Below are positions 5,320 through 64,000 of a DNA stretch of 64,000 bases, in pieces. The position numbers and the translations under genes are program-made. This DNA is from SAR86 cluster bacterium (lineage in GTDB: Bacteria; Pseudomonadota; Gammaproteobacteria; Magnimaribacterales; D2472). The DNA lies in assembly GCA_023703615.1 (NCBI GenBank), contig CP097971.1, positions 460,315 to 524,314 on the forward strand, given 5' to 3'. Every line of letters begins with the position of its first letter. The stretch's first letter is position 1. The notes under the pieces are model-generated. The model had not been told where the DNA came from. It searched no databases and worked only from the letters and a program-made list of their open reading frames with translations.

Positions 5320-6465
5320 ATGAAAAATACCAGGAATAATTTTTCAGATCACATAGCAATAATAGGAGCCGGTATTGCTGGCCTTTGTTTAGGTTGTTTT
5401 TTAAAAAAATCAGGTTTGCCTGTTGTTATTTTTGAAAAATCATCCTCTGTTAGTAATTATGGCGCTGGAATTACAATCTCACCTAATGGTATAAATATTC
5501 TCAAATATCTTGATATTGATAATCAATTTATAAGTAATTCCTTTTCACCTTCACAAACAATAATTAATGATACAAGTAAAGATATTCTAAAAATTTCTTC
5601 GAACGTAATAACATCCTCAAGAAAAACATTATATTCGTCCCTTAAAGATAAATATTTATCATTAGGCGGAGAAATTTCTTTTGATCATGAATTAACCAAT
5701 GTAGATCTCAAACAAACTAAGTTAATTTTTAAAAATTTTAAAGAATATAAATTTGCACACATTGTTGGATGTGATGGTATAAAGTCTGTATGCAGAAAAT
5801 ATCTTCTAAATAAAAATTTTTACCCAACATATAGCGGATATTCAGCATGGAGATCTATCATTCCTGCAAAACAGGAAAATATTCAATTATTTATTGCACC
5901 TAATCAACATATAGTTACCTATCCAATTAATTCAAATGAAGTAAGCTTTGTTGGAATTGTAAAAACACCAAATACATTAGATTCATCATGGAAAAGGAAA
6001 GGAGCATATAGTGAAGTATTAAAAGAATTTTCACCTTTTAAAAATTTACCAAGTTCTATCATTAACAAAAAAAATGATTATTATAAATGGGGTATTTATA
6101 TATCGCCTGATTCAAAGAATTTTTGTTCAAAAAATCTTACTTTACTTGGTGATGCAGCTCACCCAATATTGCCTTTCTTAGGTCAGGGCGCTTGCATGTC
6201 ATTAGAAGATGCTCATATATTTGCACAATTGTTAATTAAAAATATTAAAAACATTAAAAAAGCTCAAAGAGAATACGAAAATATAAGAATTCCAAGAATA
6301 AAAAAAATCCAAGAATTTTCCAAGACACAAGGTTTTTTAAATCACATATCAAATCCAGTTTTTATAAGTATAAGAAACTTTATTATGCGAACTTTTCCTT
6401 CGCTAATTAACTATCGTCTCAGTGATATATGGAGTTACAAGTCTATTTTAGAATCAAAAAATTGA
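5320..6465 (+). CDS. FAD-dependent monooxygenase (aromatic hydroxylase family)
   Basis: The 381-residue flavoprotein has the dinucleotide-binding motif IIGAGIAGLCLG near residues 14-25, the DG motif VGCDGIKSVCR in the middle, and the FAD-ribityl motif GDAAHPILPFLGQGA near the C terminus. This order defines the p-hydroxybenzoate hydroxylase fold seen in salicylate hydroxylases and ubiquinone-pathway hydroxylases. No signal peptide is present, so it is cytoplasmic. Its position 7 bases after the esterase suggests it may oxidise an aromatic released by the neighbouring hydrolases, but a ubiquinone-type or other hydroxylase role is equally possible. Confidence 0.85.
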   Translation: MKNTRNNFSDHIAIIGAGIAGLCLGCFLKKSGLPVVIFEKSSSVSNYGAGITISPNGINILKYLDIDNQFISNSFSPSQTIINDTSKDILKISSNVITSSRKTLYSSLKDKYLSLGGEISFDHELTNVDLKQTKLIFKNFKEYKFAHIVGCDGIKSVCRKYLLNKNFYPTYSGYSAWRSIIPAKQENIQLFIAPNQHIVTYPINSNEVSFVGIVKTPNTLDSSWKRKGAYSEVLKEFSPFKNLPSSIINKKNDYYKWGIYISPDSKNFCSKNLTLLGDAAHPILPFLGQGACMSLEDAHIFAQLLIKNIKNIKKAQREYENIRIPRIKKIQEFSKTQGFLNHISNPVFISIRNFIMRTFPSLINYRLSDIWSYKSILESKN

Positions 6466-9071: not shown

Positions 9072-9290
9072 TACCGAACGAAACCGACCAGCAAGCAACT
9101 GCAGACGGGAGCTGGGGAGAATCAGGAGGAAGAGACCGAAGGGCGAAAGCATCACTAAGAGTCGACGATAAAAAAGAGCTTAGTGAACCACCAAGAGGAA
9201 AAGAGAGAATCCTCAAGGAGCTAAAGAGAATCTCACTTTAGACCCCTTCGAAACTCGTTTGAGAAACAGAGCCTAGCTCTGTTTTTTTTT
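9072..9290 (+). ncRNA. Candidate structured non-coding RNA upstream of pyruvate kinase
   Basis: This stretch is far richer in G and purines than its surroundings. It contains nested perfect complements: CCAGC (9088-9092) with GCTGG (9111-9115); CGAAGGG (9137-9143) with CCCTTCG (9244-9250), enclosing three hairpins TCACTAAG/CTTAGTGA (9152-9159 with 9179-9186), GAGGA/TCCTC (9195-9199 with 9210-9214) and CTAAAG/CTTTAG (9221-9226 with 9236-9241). A further CTC-GTTT-GAG hairpin precedes the terminator stem. Together they form a closed multibranch junction of about 220 nt. With a strong promoter and terminator it looks like a free RNA; an attenuating leader for pyk is the alternative. I do not recognise the family, and it lacks the hallmarks of 6S RNA, tmRNA, RNase P and SRP RNA. 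Confidence 0.65.
9262..9290 (+). terminator. Rho-independent terminator of the candidate RNA
   Basis: ACAGAGC (9266-9272) pairs with GCTCTGT (9276-9282) around the loop CTA and is followed by nine T. It separates the RNA gene from pyk. Confidence 0.9.
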
Positions 9291-58665: not shown

Positions 58666-58693
58666 TTGACTTTTACTACATTTTTTGGATAAT
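58666..58693 (+). promoter_or_regulatory. Sigma-70-type promoter of the riboswitch-peptide unit
   Basis: TTGACT (58666-58671) and GATAAT (58688-58693) are separated by 16 bases. Transcription would start near 58700, exactly where the aptamer begins. Confidence 0.65.
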
Positions 58694-58700
58694 AGTAATC

Positions 58701-58845
58701 AAACGTTCATCTTATTTTTATAATAAGACGGAAGTAGGAAGATAGGAAAACCTCTTTCTTTTTCAAAGAAAGGCAAGCAAGTACCGCTTAGGTTTAATTA
58801 TCATAGGCGGGAACGAGACCGAATATCTGCCGAAGGAACGCGTTG
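58701..58845 (+). promoter_or_regulatory. Glutamine-riboswitch-like RNA (glnA / Downstream-peptide class)
   Basis: The conserved blocks of the glutamine-binding RNAs appear in order: CGTTCATC (58704-58711), GACGGAAGTAGG (58727-58738) and CCGAAGGAACGCG (58830-58842). P1 pairs CGTTC (58704-58708) with GAACG (58836-58840). P2 is TCTTATT/AATAAGA (58710-58716 with 58722-58728). P3 pairs GG.AGATA (58737-58744) with TATCT.CC (58824-58831). The long insertion inside P3, with two sub-hairpins, matches the Downstream-peptide variant rather than the compact glnA variant, as I recall both. It controls a short peptide 62 bases further on. Identification is by remembered consensus. Confidence 0.85.
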
Positions 58846-58906
58846 AGAAGGGTGTACACCTATATGGTGTATGTACGAAATCGATACGAAAACTGGAGGA
58901 AACGAT

Positions 58907-59071
58907 ATGACTACTCATTACAGAGGCATCAAAGTAACTCCTGAAAGTGTTAAAGAAAAAATTACTAAAGTTTTTTCTGGCATTTACAGAGGTAACAAAA
59001 ATGTTGCAGTAGAAGAAAAGTCAACTCAATCACGTGAAGGAATTTACCGTGGTAACAAATGGGTTGCTTAA
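58907..59071 (+). CDS. 54-residue YRG-motif peptide under the glutamine-riboswitch-like leader
   Basis: The start is ATG 58907, with GGAGG (58895-58899) seven bases upstream; a longer in-frame GTG start would lie within the leader hairpin. The peptide holds three YRG motifs: HYRGIKV (4-10), IYRGNKNVA (26-34) and IYRGNKWVA (46-54). The last two are near-perfect repeats about 20 residues apart, with a charged helix-prone stretch between the first two (PESVKEKITKVF). Short peptides with a YRG motif are encoded downstream of this RNA class in marine cyanobacteria (from memory, related to DUF4278). A role in nitrogen signalling, perhaps binding an enzyme as glutamine-synthetase inactivating factors do, is inference. 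Confidence 0.8.
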   Translation: MTTHYRGIKVTPESVKEKITKVFSGIYRGNKNVAVEEKSTQSREGIYRGNKWVA

Positions 59072-59082
59072 TTTTCTTATAG

Positions 59083-59115
59083 AAAAAAAAGAGGAGGCGA
59101 AAGCCTCCTTTTTAT
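59083..59115. terminator. Bidirectional terminator between the YRG peptide and GDPD genes
   Basis: AGGAGGC (59092-59098) pairs with GCCTCCT (59103-59109) around GAAA, with an A-tract before and a T-tract after, so both converging genes can use it. Confidence 0.93.
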
Positions 59116-59900: not shown

Positions 59901-61016
59901 ATGAATAAATTTGATTCTATAAGACCATATAAGGATGAAGAGGTTAATAAAGTAATCCTTGAGTTATGCAATAACAAAAACGTAATTAAAGCAGCTATTG
60001 CATCAAGCAAATATAGTTTCATTAAGAAGATTCCATTTTCAAAATTATTAATGAGTATTTTCTTAAAAAATAGATTTAAGAATATTCAATCAATAGTAGA
60101 GTATCAAAATATATTTAAAAACCTTGTAAAAAAAATAATCAAAAATTCAATTAAAAATTTTGATGTAACTGGTATTGATAATTTAGATAATTCCAATGCT
60201 TATCTTTTTATATCAAATCATAGAGACATTACATTAGACTCAGCTTTATTAAATTTTCAACTTCACAAAAACAATCTAAAAACTACCAATAATGCTGTTG
60301 GGAATAATCTTTTAACTGAAAAGTGGGCGTCGGATTTAATGAGATTAAATAAAAGTTTCATTATAGATAGAAGTGACAAGTTTAAAAAGGATATATATAA
60401 AAGCTTAAAATTAGCTTCAGAATTCATTTATGACTGCATAACTTCCAAAAATGAATCTATATGGATTGCTCAAAAGCAAGGTAGATCAAAAGATGGAGTA
60501 GACTATACTGATCCATCAGTACTAAAAATGATTCATCTGAATTCAAGAAAAAAAACTGAAGTAAGTGAATATTTTAATAATTTAAAGCTTGTACCAGTAT
60601 CAGTTTCATATGAAAAAGATCCTAATGATATTTTAAAAGCAAAAGAATTGTATTTAAGATCTGTAAATACAGATTATGTTAAAGAAAAAAATGAAGACTT
60701 AAAAAGTATCTTCGTTGGCATCTCAGGCCATAAGGGAAATGTTCACATCGAAGTTGGAGAGCCTATGCTTTTCAGTAACAAAGAAGACTATGACGAAATT
60801 GCGAAGATAACAACTAAAAAAATTAAATCTATGTATAAAATTCATGCAACAAATATTGCTGCGTGTATTCTTCAAGGCATCGAAATTCCAATTCAACACG
60901 GATTTACTAATGATGAAATAGACGAATCAATGCAATGGCTTAAAGAAAGGTTGCATGATATACCAGAAGATATGCAACCATTTCTTTTGAATCAATATAG
61001 TAATCCAGTTTTATAA
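59901..61016 (+). CDS. Glycerolipid acyltransferase (PlsC-like domain)
   Basis: The 371-residue protein has an acyltransferase core with LFISNHRDITLDSALLNF. His107 and Asp113 replace the usual HX4D spacing with HRDITLD, a form I recall in a distinct bacterial subgroup. It also has NNLLTEKWASDLM, SFIIDRSD and the substrate-site block IWIAQKQGRSKDG. It probably acylates glycerol-3-phosphate or a lysophospholipid. It is separated from amtB by a convergent overlap of 6 bases. Confidence 0.8.
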   Translation: MNKFDSIRPYKDEEVNKVILELCNNKNVIKAAIASSKYSFIKKIPFSKLLMSIFLKNRFKNIQSIVEYQNIFKNLVKKIIKNSIKNFDVTGIDNLDNSNAYLFISNHRDITLDSALLNFQLHKNNLKTTNNAVGNNLLTEKWASDLMRLNKSFIIDRSDKFKKDIYKSLKLASEFIYDCITSKNESIWIAQKQGRSKDGVDYTDPSVLKMIHLNSRKKTEVSEYFNNLKLVPVSVSYEKDPNDILKAKELYLRSVNTDYVKEKNEDLKSIFVGISGHKGNVHIEVGEPMLFSNKEDYDEIAKITTKKIKSMYKIHATNIAACILQGIEIPIQHGFTNDEIDESMQWLKERLHDIPEDMQPFLLNQYSNPVL

Positions 61017-62294
61017 GCTATAGCCTTGTTCATTGTGTTCATTAATATCAAGGCCTTCATTTTCTTCATCCAAGGAAACTCTAATAGGAACAAAATACGA
61101 TAAAACTTTTAATATTCCATAACTCATTACCGCAGTCCAAAGGCCAATAACTACAATCCCAATAATTTGTATTCTTAATTGATCCATAAGACCATCATCT
61201 GAAATTCCTGCTGCACCAGATCCTAAAAAGCCATCAGGATTTCCTACAAAACATAATGCTAAAACACCTAAAATCCCTCCAACCCCATGAACTGGAAAAA
61301 CATCTAAGGAGTCATCAATTTTAAAATATGCCTTCACTAATTGTGTTGCATAAAAACATATGGATCCTGCCAATAGACCTATTAATAATGCACCAGCTGG
61401 ACCAACTGTACCTGATGCTGGAGTGATAGTTGCTAAGCCTGCAACCATACCAGTACAAATTCCAACTAAAGTTGATTTACCTGATTTAAACCACTCAATA
61501 GCCATCCATGTGAGAGCACCAACTGCAGCACTAATATGCGTAACAAGCATAGCCATACCTGCTGAAGAATCAGCTGCGACAGCGCTACCACCGTTAAATC
61601 CAAACCAACCAACCCAAAGCATGGATGCTCCTATCATGACCATTGTTCTATTATGTGGAGGCATCGGCGCAGATGGAAATCCATTTCTTCTTCCTAGAAA
61701 AATTGCAGCGACTAATGCTCCAATCCCACATGTTGCATGAACAACCAAACCTCCTGCAAAATCGATAACTCCAATAGAGCCCAAATAGCCACCACCCCAA
61801 ACCATATGACACGCTGGTAAATAAACTAGGGTAAACCAAGCTACAGAAAATATGCACATTGCTGAAAATTTCATTCTTTCAGCAAAAGCACCTACAACTA
61901 GTGCAGGAGTAATTATTGCAAAAGTCATTTGAAAAGTAATAAATACGGTTTCTGGCAACGTTCCACTCATAGCATTTCTGCCAATTCCATTTAAAAAAAG
62001 AGCACTTAAATCTCCAATAATCATCCCGTTCCCTTTAAAAGCTAGGGAGTATCCGTAAACTACCCAACAAACCGATATAAGGCATGCAATAGTAAAACAT
62101 TGCATTAGTACAGATAAAACATTTTTCGATCTAACCAATCCTCCATAAAATAGAGCTAACCCAGGCAAAGTCATAAATAAAACAAGTGCTGTTGATGTAA
62201 GTATCCATGCGGTATCACCAGAATTAGATTCGCTAGCCAATGACAATTGTGAAAAAAAACTTAAATACAAAACTAGAAAAAATTTATGTTTCAT
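61011..62294 (-). CDS. amtB: Ammonium transporter, AmtB type
   Basis: The 427-residue inner-membrane protein has a cleavable signal peptide (MKHKFFLVLYLSFFSQLSLAS), as AmtB proteins of gammaproteobacteria do, and eleven transmembrane segments. The twin-histidine pore is visible in FAGGLVVHATCGIGAL and VFPVHGVGGILGVLA. The family motifs GDTAWILTSTALVLFMTLPG and FYGGLVRSKNVLS begin the mature part. It moves ammonium into the cell and is gated by PII proteins. AAGGGGATCACG precedes the ATG. It lies about 215 bases after a second amt gene. Confidence 0.95.
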   Translation of the reverse strand: MKHKFFLVLYLSFFSQLSLASESNSGDTAWILTSTALVLFMTLPGLALFYGGLVRSKNVLSVLMQCFTIACLISVCWVVYGYSLAFKGNGMIIGDLSALFLNGIGRNAMSGTLPETVFITFQMTFAIITPALVVGAFAERMKFSAMCIFSVAWFTLVYLPACHMVWGGGYLGSIGVIDFAGGLVVHATCGIGALVAAIFLGRRNGFPSAPMPPHNRTMVMIGASMLWVGWFGFNGGSAVAADSSAGMAMLVTHISAAVGALTWMAIEWFKSGKSTLVGICTGMVAGLATITPASGTVGPAGALLIGLLAGSICFYATQLVKAYFKIDDSLDVFPVHGVGGILGVLALCFVGNPDGFLGSGAAGISDDGLMDQLRIQIIGIVVIGLWTAVMSYGILKVLSYFVPIRVSLDEENEGLDINEHNEQGYSL

Positions 62295-62509: not shown

Positions 62510-63757
62510 TTATTTAAATTCTGGATATGATTCAACTCCTATCTCTGAAGCATCAAGACCCATGTCTTGCTCTTCATCAGTTGCTCTAATTGGCATAACC
62601 ATATTGATTACAAATATAGTTATTAAACTTGCAACATAAGTGAATCCACCGATTGCAACTACTCCAGCAAACTGCATACCAAAGCTAGCATCTGATGTTA
62701 AAGGTACAACCATAACACCAAAAATACCAACAATTCCGTGAGCAGAAATAGCACCAACTGGATCATCAATTTTAAGTGTCTTGTCTAGGAATAAAATTGA
62801 AAAATAAACAATGACTCCACCAACAGCACCAATTAGCACAGCAGTACCACCACTTGGAGCACTTGGACCTGCAGTAATTGCAACTAGTCCTGCTATAGCA
62901 CCATTAATAGCCATGGTTACATCCATTTTTCCTGTTAAAAAGAGACTAGTAAATAATGCAGCAACAACTCCACCTGCAGCAGCCATATTTGTATTTAAGA
63001 ATACTTGACTGACAGCAATAGCACTCGCTTCATCACTAACTATTAATTCTGAACCACCATTAAATCCAAACCATCCTAACCATAATATCCATGCACCAAG
63101 AGCTGCCATTGGAATATTTGATCCTGGCATAGCATTTGATGTGCCGTCGAAGTTATACTTACCTTTTCTAGCTCCTAGAACGGTAACAACTGCTAAAGCT
63201 GCAGCAGCACCACATAAATGCACTGTTCCTGAACCTGCGTAGTCTGAATAGCCACCTTGGCTTAAGAAACCACCACCCCAGTTCCAATAACCTTGGATAG
63301 GATAGATAAAGCCTGTAAGCACAATGGCAAATATAAAGAATGGTAATAATTTCATTCTTCCAGCAACTGCACCTGATACGATAGACATTGCTGTAGCAAC
63401 AAAGACTACTTGGAAAAAGAAGTCAGCTTGTTGTGAATAATCCATACCATACGGCATTCCAATTTCTTCGTTAGGTAACGATGTTGACAGGCTCCATGAT
63501 GTACCAATCGCAGGTAAATAACTCTCTAAAGCACCTCCAAATGCTCCACCACCTGGATACATAAGCATGAATCCACATGTTAAATACATGATACATGCTA
63601 TTGAATATAGTCCTAAGTTCTTAGTAACTATCTCTGAGACATCTTTCTTTTGAACAAGTCCTGCTTCTAGCATGGTAAAACCAGCTGCCATCCACATAAC
63701 AAGTGCTCCAGCCATAATGGCGTAGAAAGTGTCTAATGCAAATTTTACTTCTTCCAT
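62510..63757 (-). CDS. amt: Ammonium transporter, second type (no cleavable signal)
   Basis: The 415-residue protein has eleven transmembrane segments and starts directly with MEEVKFALDTFYAIMAGALV, without the signal peptide of its neighbour. The pore histidines are in GTVHLCGAAAALAV and AHGIVGIFGVMVV. GFTMLEAGLVQKKDV matches the cyanobacterial/marine Amt branch. The strong ribosome site AAAGGAG and the 22-base gap to the PII gene show it is co-transcribed as a PII-amt pair. It differs enough from the 61011 protein that the two are separate lineages, not a recent duplication. Confidence 0.94.
   Translation of the reverse strand: MEEVKFALDTFYAIMAGALVMWMAAGFTMLEAGLVQKKDVSEIVTKNLGLYSIACIMYLTCGFMLMYPGGGAFGGALESYLPAIGTSWSLSTSLPNEEIGMPYGMDYSQQADFFFQVVFVATAMSIVSGAVAGRMKLLPFFIFAIVLTGFIYPIQGYWNWGGGFLSQGGYSDYAGSGTVHLCGAAAALAVVTVLGARKGKYNFDGTSNAMPGSNIPMAALGAWILWLGWFGFNGGSELIVSDEASAIAVSQVFLNTNMAAAGGVVAALFTSLFLTGKMDVTMAINGAIAGLVAITAGPSAPSGGTAVLIGAVGGVIVYFSILFLDKTLKIDDPVGAISAHGIVGIFGVMVVPLTSDASFGMQFAGVVAIGGFTYVASLITIFVINMVMPIRATDEEQDMGLDASEIGVESYPEFK

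Positions 63758-63779: not shown

Positions 63780-64000
<221 letters not shown>

Follow-up and report, generated by a model that had tools for sequence, protein, structure and literature searches.

A putative type 1 glutamine riboswitch variant with a conserved domain nested in its P3 loop precedes YRG peptides in SAR86 bacteria and marine phages

The closest described relatives of the RNA reported here are the glutamine riboswitches. The glnA and Downstream-peptide aptamers bind glutamine and were regarded in 2018 as confined to cyanobacteria, where riboswitches of both glutamine types, 1 and 2, regulate DUF4278 genes and where PMM1846 has been proposed to be IF-like (PMC6316151). In the gifB-IF17 system of Synechocystis, a type 1 aptamer precedes the gene of a DUF4278-containing protein, and both this riboswitch and that of a Prochlorococcus DUF4278 gene activate expression with glutamine; no P3 insert is mentioned in that report (PMC6316151). 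Another parallel, drawn from description rather than sequence comparison, is sP36 of Methanosarcina mazei, a 61-aa archaeal protein that bridges AmtB1 and GlnK1 and is linked to Amt control in organisms that lack glnD (PMC10714827). It differs from the system presented below in its bridging action and in that no glutamine riboswitch has been described for it.

The window analyzed here is a 64-kb stretch of a SAR86 genome assembled as a single 1.23-Mb contig. At 58666-59115 it contains a promoter, a glutamine aptamer, a YRG peptide gene and a terminator, a unit that had been predicted from the sequence and that Rfam searches, open reading frames and promoter and terminator scans confirmed. We favor, with a probability of about 0.6, the reading that the unit is a nested variant of the type 1 glutamine riboswitch that is turned ON by glutamine, is tuned by its insert and governs a ~54-aa inhibitor of ammonium assimilation. 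The sequences themselves show the architecture and covariation of the leader, the YRG peptide behind every nested copy, the constant motif spacing in those peptides, linkage to amt and PII genes and co-occurrence with GlnD loss; glutamine binding and ON polarity are inferred from characterized homologs, and how the RNA switches, what its insert does and what the peptide acts on are inferred as well. SAR86 bacteria, which are abundant in the ocean and uncultured, commonly carry RNAs of the glutamine riboswitch type, one form of which appears to hold a new embedded domain.

Architecture of the nested leader

The module opens with a sigma-70-like promoter (TTGACT-16 nt-GATAAT, 58666-58693, + strand) that matches the consensus at 10 of 12 positions and whose expected transcription start, about 7 nt further on, is the first base of the aptamer. 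The promoter scan by itself was not above chance (2 found versus 3.1 expected); the scan that located the intrinsic terminator at 59088-59113 (+) was (2 versus 0.2).

A complete nested aptamer occupies 58703-58842 (+), as judged from pattern matching, Rfam searches of relatives, covariation and our model R1. P1 pairs CGUUC (58704-58708) with GAACG (58836-58840), P2 pairs 58710-58716 with 58722-58728, and the core motifs are GGAAGTA at 58730-58736 and GAAGGAACGC at 58832-58841 (all +). The expected glutamine-riboswitch match was obtained, yet the window copy barely clears the RF01739 cut-off of 35, with 35.3 bits, since the model puts the 3' half of the aptamer in the wrong place: the alignment covers 58702-58777 (+), with two P1 positions mispaired, and the consensus 3' block GCCGAAGGAACGC lies intact at 58829-58841, downstream of the 3' half that Rfam selects. 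With the true block further downstream, P1 becomes CGUUC/GAACG and the loop of P3 contains an insert of ~85 nt. We rejected the plain RF01739 reading, with its 3' half at 58760-58777, in view of this perfect 3' block and of five nested relatives that align to RF01739 through P1, P2, P3 and a skipped loop of 54 to 87 nt, at 38.9 to 49.1 bits.

Among 53 aligned and 92 parsed sequences, P1 (CGUUC/GAACG), the core CGGAAGUA and the 3' core GAAGGAACGC are invariant or nearly so; P1, having no variation at all, therefore contributes no covariation support. The conserved blocks and P1-P3 pairings that the original prediction had read are present, but P3 is not the plain, short hairpin of the class: a second domain, large and conserved and with stems P4 and P5, occupies its loop. 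Since the core is intact and P3 is not simple, the RNA is to be placed as a variant of the type 1 class rather than a standard member. Most likely, the window RNA is a type 1 glutamine riboswitch variant in which a conserved three-way-junction domain takes the place of the P3 loop, with glutamine binding expected from its characterized homologs. It shares with glnA RNAs (RF01739) the P1/P2/P3 junction, the core blocks, a location in leaders of genes that are nitrogen-related or encode DUF4278 and the occurrence of tandem copies in relatives, and differs from them in the conserved ~55- to 90-nt domain in the P3 loop. Glutamine-II RNAs (RF01704) likewise precede small DUF4278-type peptides, but the suggested match to that family did not materialize: the alignment is confined to 30 nt of the 5' side, and its score of 18.1 bits falls short of the cut-off of 33.

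The inserted domain spans 58739-58828 (+). It comprises an extended P3 (58739-58743/58825-58828), the junction GGAAAACC (58745-58752), the P4 stem-loop (58753-58775), the junction AGCAAGTA (58776-58783), the P5 stem-loop (58784-58810) and the junction GAACGAGACCGA (58811-58822), all on the + strand. The consensus of the 92 distinct nested sequences that we parsed reads GGAAGUA-P3-(G/U)GAAAACC-P4-AGCNAGUA-P5-GAACGAGACCGA-P3'-GAAGGAACGC, and the insert forms a three-way junction with ~27 near-invariant loop bases. Its junction bases hardly change, and its stems are free to vary, with compensation; in an alignment anchored on the motifs alone, the first P5 pair is CG in 61 sequences, GC in 21, AU in 7, GU in 2 and unpaired in 1. 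A MAFFT alignment of 53 sequences gave strong covariation, with 97.2% paired cells versus 76.2% in shuffled controls, two-sided changes in 233 cells versus 77.8 and a covariation score of 0.537 versus 0.173 when shuffled and at most 0.128 when slid. RNAalifold recovered P1, P2, P4 and P5 unaided.

The window insert gave no Rfam match to E = 10 beyond chance-level scores, and five nested relatives gave no further family to E = 0.05; with no family matched, we discarded a known RNA class as its identity. Neither 2.9 million viral contigs nor 84,980 species genomes, scanned by pattern, yielded the insert outside a glutamine aptamer. A mobile freestanding RNA was likewise set aside, as the genome contigs yielded 39 aptamer-embedded cases and four aptamer-less chance hits. 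The three-way topology and the AGUA-stem-GAA strings look alike by eye in the insert and in the glutamine aptamer, and a decayed second glutamine aptamer is a weak idea that might be drawn from this; no second RF01739 match lies within the insert. The literature searched, which takes in a minority of subscription journals, contains no description of it, and it may have been mentioned before. We regard the insert as a candidate new RNA domain, conserved and lodged within the aptamer.

Occurrence, peptide and genomic setting

Model R1 was built from the nested alignment, with the window copy (116.3 bits) in its training set, and in SAR86 it splits nested (101 to 121 bits) from plain aptamers (at most 43 bits) without overlap. 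It located the nested RNA in 42 of 203 SAR86-order genomes, one copy per genome: 3 of 107 in the window's own family (f1), 33 of 40 in f2, 6 of 35 in f3 and 0 of 21 in f4. Within f1, genomes G062 (where the module lies on a 19,945-bp contig) and G055 also carry the nested form. A spread of 369 gammaproteobacterial genomes searched with R1 added none outside the SAR86 order. A pattern of inner plus outer blocks matched in 90 viral contigs, and the insert-only pattern matched in 110 viral contigs and 43 genome contigs, the latter being 37 of SAR86 type, one Halieaceae metagenome-assembled genome (MAG), one "Flavobacteriales" MAG contig that shares its leader exactly with viral contigs and the four chance hits. 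Two nested leaders compared by blastn with a phage collection found no match there.

The host chromosome is gammaproteobacterial, as had been thought, but the module does not stand alone in it: it recurs throughout the order as counted above, in many marine phages and in the Halieaceae MAG, and in the relatives the nested RNA lies beside YRG peptides with the frame present. Transfer and shared descent had both been offered as its origin. The distribution fits long-standing vertical inheritance in SAR86 together with exchange with phages, and fits a lone acquisition less well.

Upstream of the viral copies, a T4-type late box, TATAAATA, stands within 30 nt of the aptamer in 26 of 57 distinct regions, where ~0.0036 per region would be expected (an enrichment of ~100 times background); SAR86 upstream regions have none. 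The closeness of the box suggests that transcription begins near the aptamer in viral contigs too. Phage glutamine riboswitches reportedly came to notice after 2018. Two such phages were considered as carriers of the nested type and rejected: Melnitz, a marine phage, has a glnA-type aptamer, but a plain one, and S-CREM1 has a glnA-type aptamer with a small YRG protein downstream, but with a different P3 insertion that lacks the conserved insert motifs. The S-CREM1 insertion (OP535465; L293 733-831) contains GGAACG-GAT-CGTTCATTCGC, resembles a rearranged second glutamine aptamer and is annotated only as glnA. Viral contig L092 carries a permuted two-piece tmRNA and a nested riboswitch/YRG peptide ~3.3 kb apart (1848-2164, 5432-5534).

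In the window, the Shine-Dalgarno sequence GGAGG (58895-58899, +) is followed by the predicted 54-residue, triple-YRG, DUF4278-like peptide (58907-59071, +), recognized from its reading frame, Pfam comparison and codon variation in relatives. A YRG peptide follows the nested leader in all 110 distinct cases, with three YRG motifs in 93 and two in 17; plain viral leaders, among the matches listed, precede a peptide with any YRG in 20 of 107 cases and one with three in 3. Across 107 distinct peptides (mean pI 10.0), the motifs are 19 to 25 residues apart in 186 of 186 intervals, while the linkers vary. YRG itself is invariant and its Y, R and G codons vary synonymously, which argues that the peptide is under selection. 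Against DUF4278 (PF14105) the window peptide scores 21.8, below the cut-off of 25.3, and peptides of close relatives pass it (38.4 in G055, 27.9 in G030 and 26.9 in G029); a Pfam search of the window peptide found this similarity and no second domain. We found no solved structure of a YRG peptide, and an AlphaFold2 model with three short hairpins and YRG at each turn is of low confidence (pLDDT 69, pTM 0.23) and too weak to rely on. Because YRG peptides also follow plain single aptamers in phages and plain tandem aptamers in SAR86, the peptide does not require the insert; no insert was observed that lacked the peptide. If RNA and gene descended together as a single cassette, the 110/110 coupling could arise without a functional link.

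The two amt genes and the PII gene expected about 2 to 5 kb away were borne out by Pfam: one ammonium transporter (Amt) is encoded at 61011-62294 (-; PF00909, 1.2e-116), a second at 62510-63757 (-; PF00909, 3.6e-90) and a PII protein (GlnK/GlnB; PF00543, 3e-14; T-loop YRGSEY) at 63780-64000 (-), where the gene is cut by the window end. This is the only amt pair of the source genome. A gene for an MFS protein is also nearby, and genes for a GDPD and an acyltransferase sit between the module and amt. Elsewhere in this SAR86-type chromosome, at window positions 9078-9266, lies an IMES-1 RNA (187.9 bits; gathering threshold 81), of a kind that is plentiful in the sea and has no assigned function.

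An Amt gene falls within a stretch of at most 8 kb in 23 of 37 SAR86-type nested loci. In f2, the nested RNA lies ~80 nt behind glnK-amt on the same strand in one genus, is convergent with amt in another and is ~2 kb off, beyond trmJ-suhB-like genes, in a third; glnK and amt converge with it in the Halieaceae MAG. No Amt gene was present in such stretches of up to 8 kb in genus g11 and family f3. The GlnD domain (PF08335) was matched in 0/40 f2, 0/21 f4 and 0/10 f1 genus g3 genomes, all of these groups being rich in glutamine RNAs, and in 86/107 f1 and 31/35 f3 genomes overall. Nested RNA and GlnD absence are strongly associated (Fisher, 1.5e-8) by a statistic that ignores phylogeny, and GlnD and the nested RNA coexist in some members, including the source genome. 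The PII T-loop apexes are YRGSEY in the source genome and YRGTEY and YRGASY in f2. Although f2 has no GlnD match, those of its PII proteins that were examined retain the tyrosine of the T-loop.

The proposed switch and competing readings

In the mechanism that we propose, the transcript would start at the aptamer, and glutamine would stabilize the P1/P2/P3 junction. P1 would then stack on a neighboring helix, P6, and leave the Shine-Dalgarno sequence free, so that translation would be ON at high glutamine. Glutamine binding and this polarity are probable by analogy with the characterized gifB and Prochlorococcus riboswitches, which activate. P6 is a short helix around a hairpin in the leader 3' of the aptamer (58842-58894, +); its pairs in the window, C58841-G58888, G58842-C58887 and U58843-A58886, would be stacked on P1 and end just before the Shine-Dalgarno sequence. 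It is often present in relatives (GUU/AAC, UAU/AUUA, AAUAGG/CCUAUU and others) and looks compensatory between groups by eye, a permutation test being only suggestive (79/2000). The predicted ligand-free fold of the window leader favors the absence of P1 (-52.1 versus -48.2 kcal/mol), and in it the P1 5' strand pairs with GAACG of the insert with a probability of 0.67; in relatives this pairing varies and is often weak. A ligand-free fold without P1 is compatible with an ON switch but does not prove one. Another helix in the window fold, which would join the P3 3' strand to the start region and cover the start codon, was dismissed because its own pairs were no better than permuted ones.

The insert would tune this switch, whether it binds a protein or a second ligand or competes for P1, the 5' strand of which its invariant GAACG can pair with. 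A tentative reading makes it a structural module, a tertiary scaffold or a P1 decoy, that replaces the second aptamer of a tandem and sharpens the glutamine response. The two plain tandem aptamers before the same peptide in SAR86 relatives (L006-L009) suit this, as do the identity of the GAACG with the P1 3' strand and its predicted pairing in the window; the weakness of that pairing in many relatives speaks against a decoy, and a scaffold has no obvious need for so many invariant bases. Those ~27 bases, gathered in three junctions (GAAAACC, AGCNAGUA and GAACGAGACCGA) between freely varying stems, are the pattern of a ligand pocket and, with no Rfam family matching the insert, might mark a second small-molecule aptamer, which would make the leader a two-input gate for glutamine and another metabolite. 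We consider this doubtful, as the insert, unlike typical aptamers, stayed within glutamine aptamers across all the viral contigs and species genomes scanned, and as tertiary folding alone could account for the same conservation; if the insert does sense a second signal, the leader would be a natural nested two-input RNA gate. It is unlikely that the insert is instead a binding site through which the basic YRG peptide represses its own mRNA, adding autogenous feedback to glutamine induction. The constant presence of the peptide downstream of the insert, when plain aptamers serve many other genes, and the arginine-containing, basic composition of peptides with an invariant YRG would accord with such feedback, but YRG peptides behind plain aptamers in phages and SAR86 do without the insert, and co-inheritance of RNA and gene as a cassette gives the same pattern.

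The peptide, in the favored reading, would be a small inhibitor in ammonium assimilation. That it acts as a glutamine synthetase-inactivating factor like IF7 or IF17, and not as a regulator of ammonium transport, seems questionable to us. IF17 has DUF4278 as its N-terminal part, and DUF4278 genes under glutamine riboswitches are a cyanobacterial precedent for this, but that part is dispensable for glutamine synthetase inhibition (PMC6316151). SAR86 glutamine synthetase is itself preceded by plain glutamine aptamers (L011). IF17 combines its DUF4278 part with an IF7-like inhibitory C terminus, whereas the window peptide, at 54 aa, has only the DUF4278 similarity and no second domain, and the SAR86 genes adjoin amt-glnK.

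A bolder proposal, which we rate as improbable, is that the peptide is a glutamine-induced Amt plug, in which three tethered T-loop apexes would cap the pores of the Amt trimer and replace GlnD-controlled GlnK in streamlined SAR86, marine phages would use it to reset host ammonium uptake and the leader would act as a two-input nested gate. PII proteins have YRGxEY at the T-loop apex, and the R of YRG is Arg47 of E. coli GlnK. In E. coli, three T-loop tips enter the AmtB pore exits, where Arg47 blocks conduction, but GlnK with Arg47Ala still bound AmtB in vitro (PMC4274968). Three evenly spaced YRG motifs, adjacency to amt, the likely induction by glutamine and occurrence in lineages without GlnD would all agree with a T-loop mimic. 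Against it, PII has E two positions after YRG and the peptides mostly K, their pI of ~10 makes them basic and a three-residue match is weak evidence; it is for these reasons, together with the Arg47Ala binding, that we rate the idea low. Were the peptide to restrain ammonium uptake, this would explain the coupling of glutamine to transport in GlnD-less SAR86 and the cassettes in phages. Through the constant spacing of 19 to 25 residues between YRG motifs, and through linkage to amt, the DUF4278 peptides, long without an explanation, become directly testable.

Plain glutamine aptamers in SAR86 and phages

Plain glutamine aptamers are common in SAR86, including tandem and triple arrays, and the genes that follow them encode glutamine synthetase (L011), a Xan_ur permease, outer-membrane proteins and several tiny proteins. 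In two SAR86 genera they precede the same YRG peptide as the nested form, as tandem pairs in L006-L009. Other pairs stand before a TonB-receptor-like frame, glutamine synthetase or a Xan_ur permease, and three plain aptamers in a row precede a predicted outer-membrane protein in L064 (G009:C2) and L066 (G002:C7). The source genome has a second glutamine RNA, plain and scoring 64.8 bits (L001, G000:C1:340025-340078), which precedes a circularly permuted ATP-grasp gene with a divergent gene for a proteasome-like protein beside it; L020 is arranged alike. In phages, the plain riboswitches (L333-L452) precede, among the matches listed, many families of proteins of 26 to 65 aa, mostly nameless, which would amount to a large set of glutamine-controlled phage micro-proteins.
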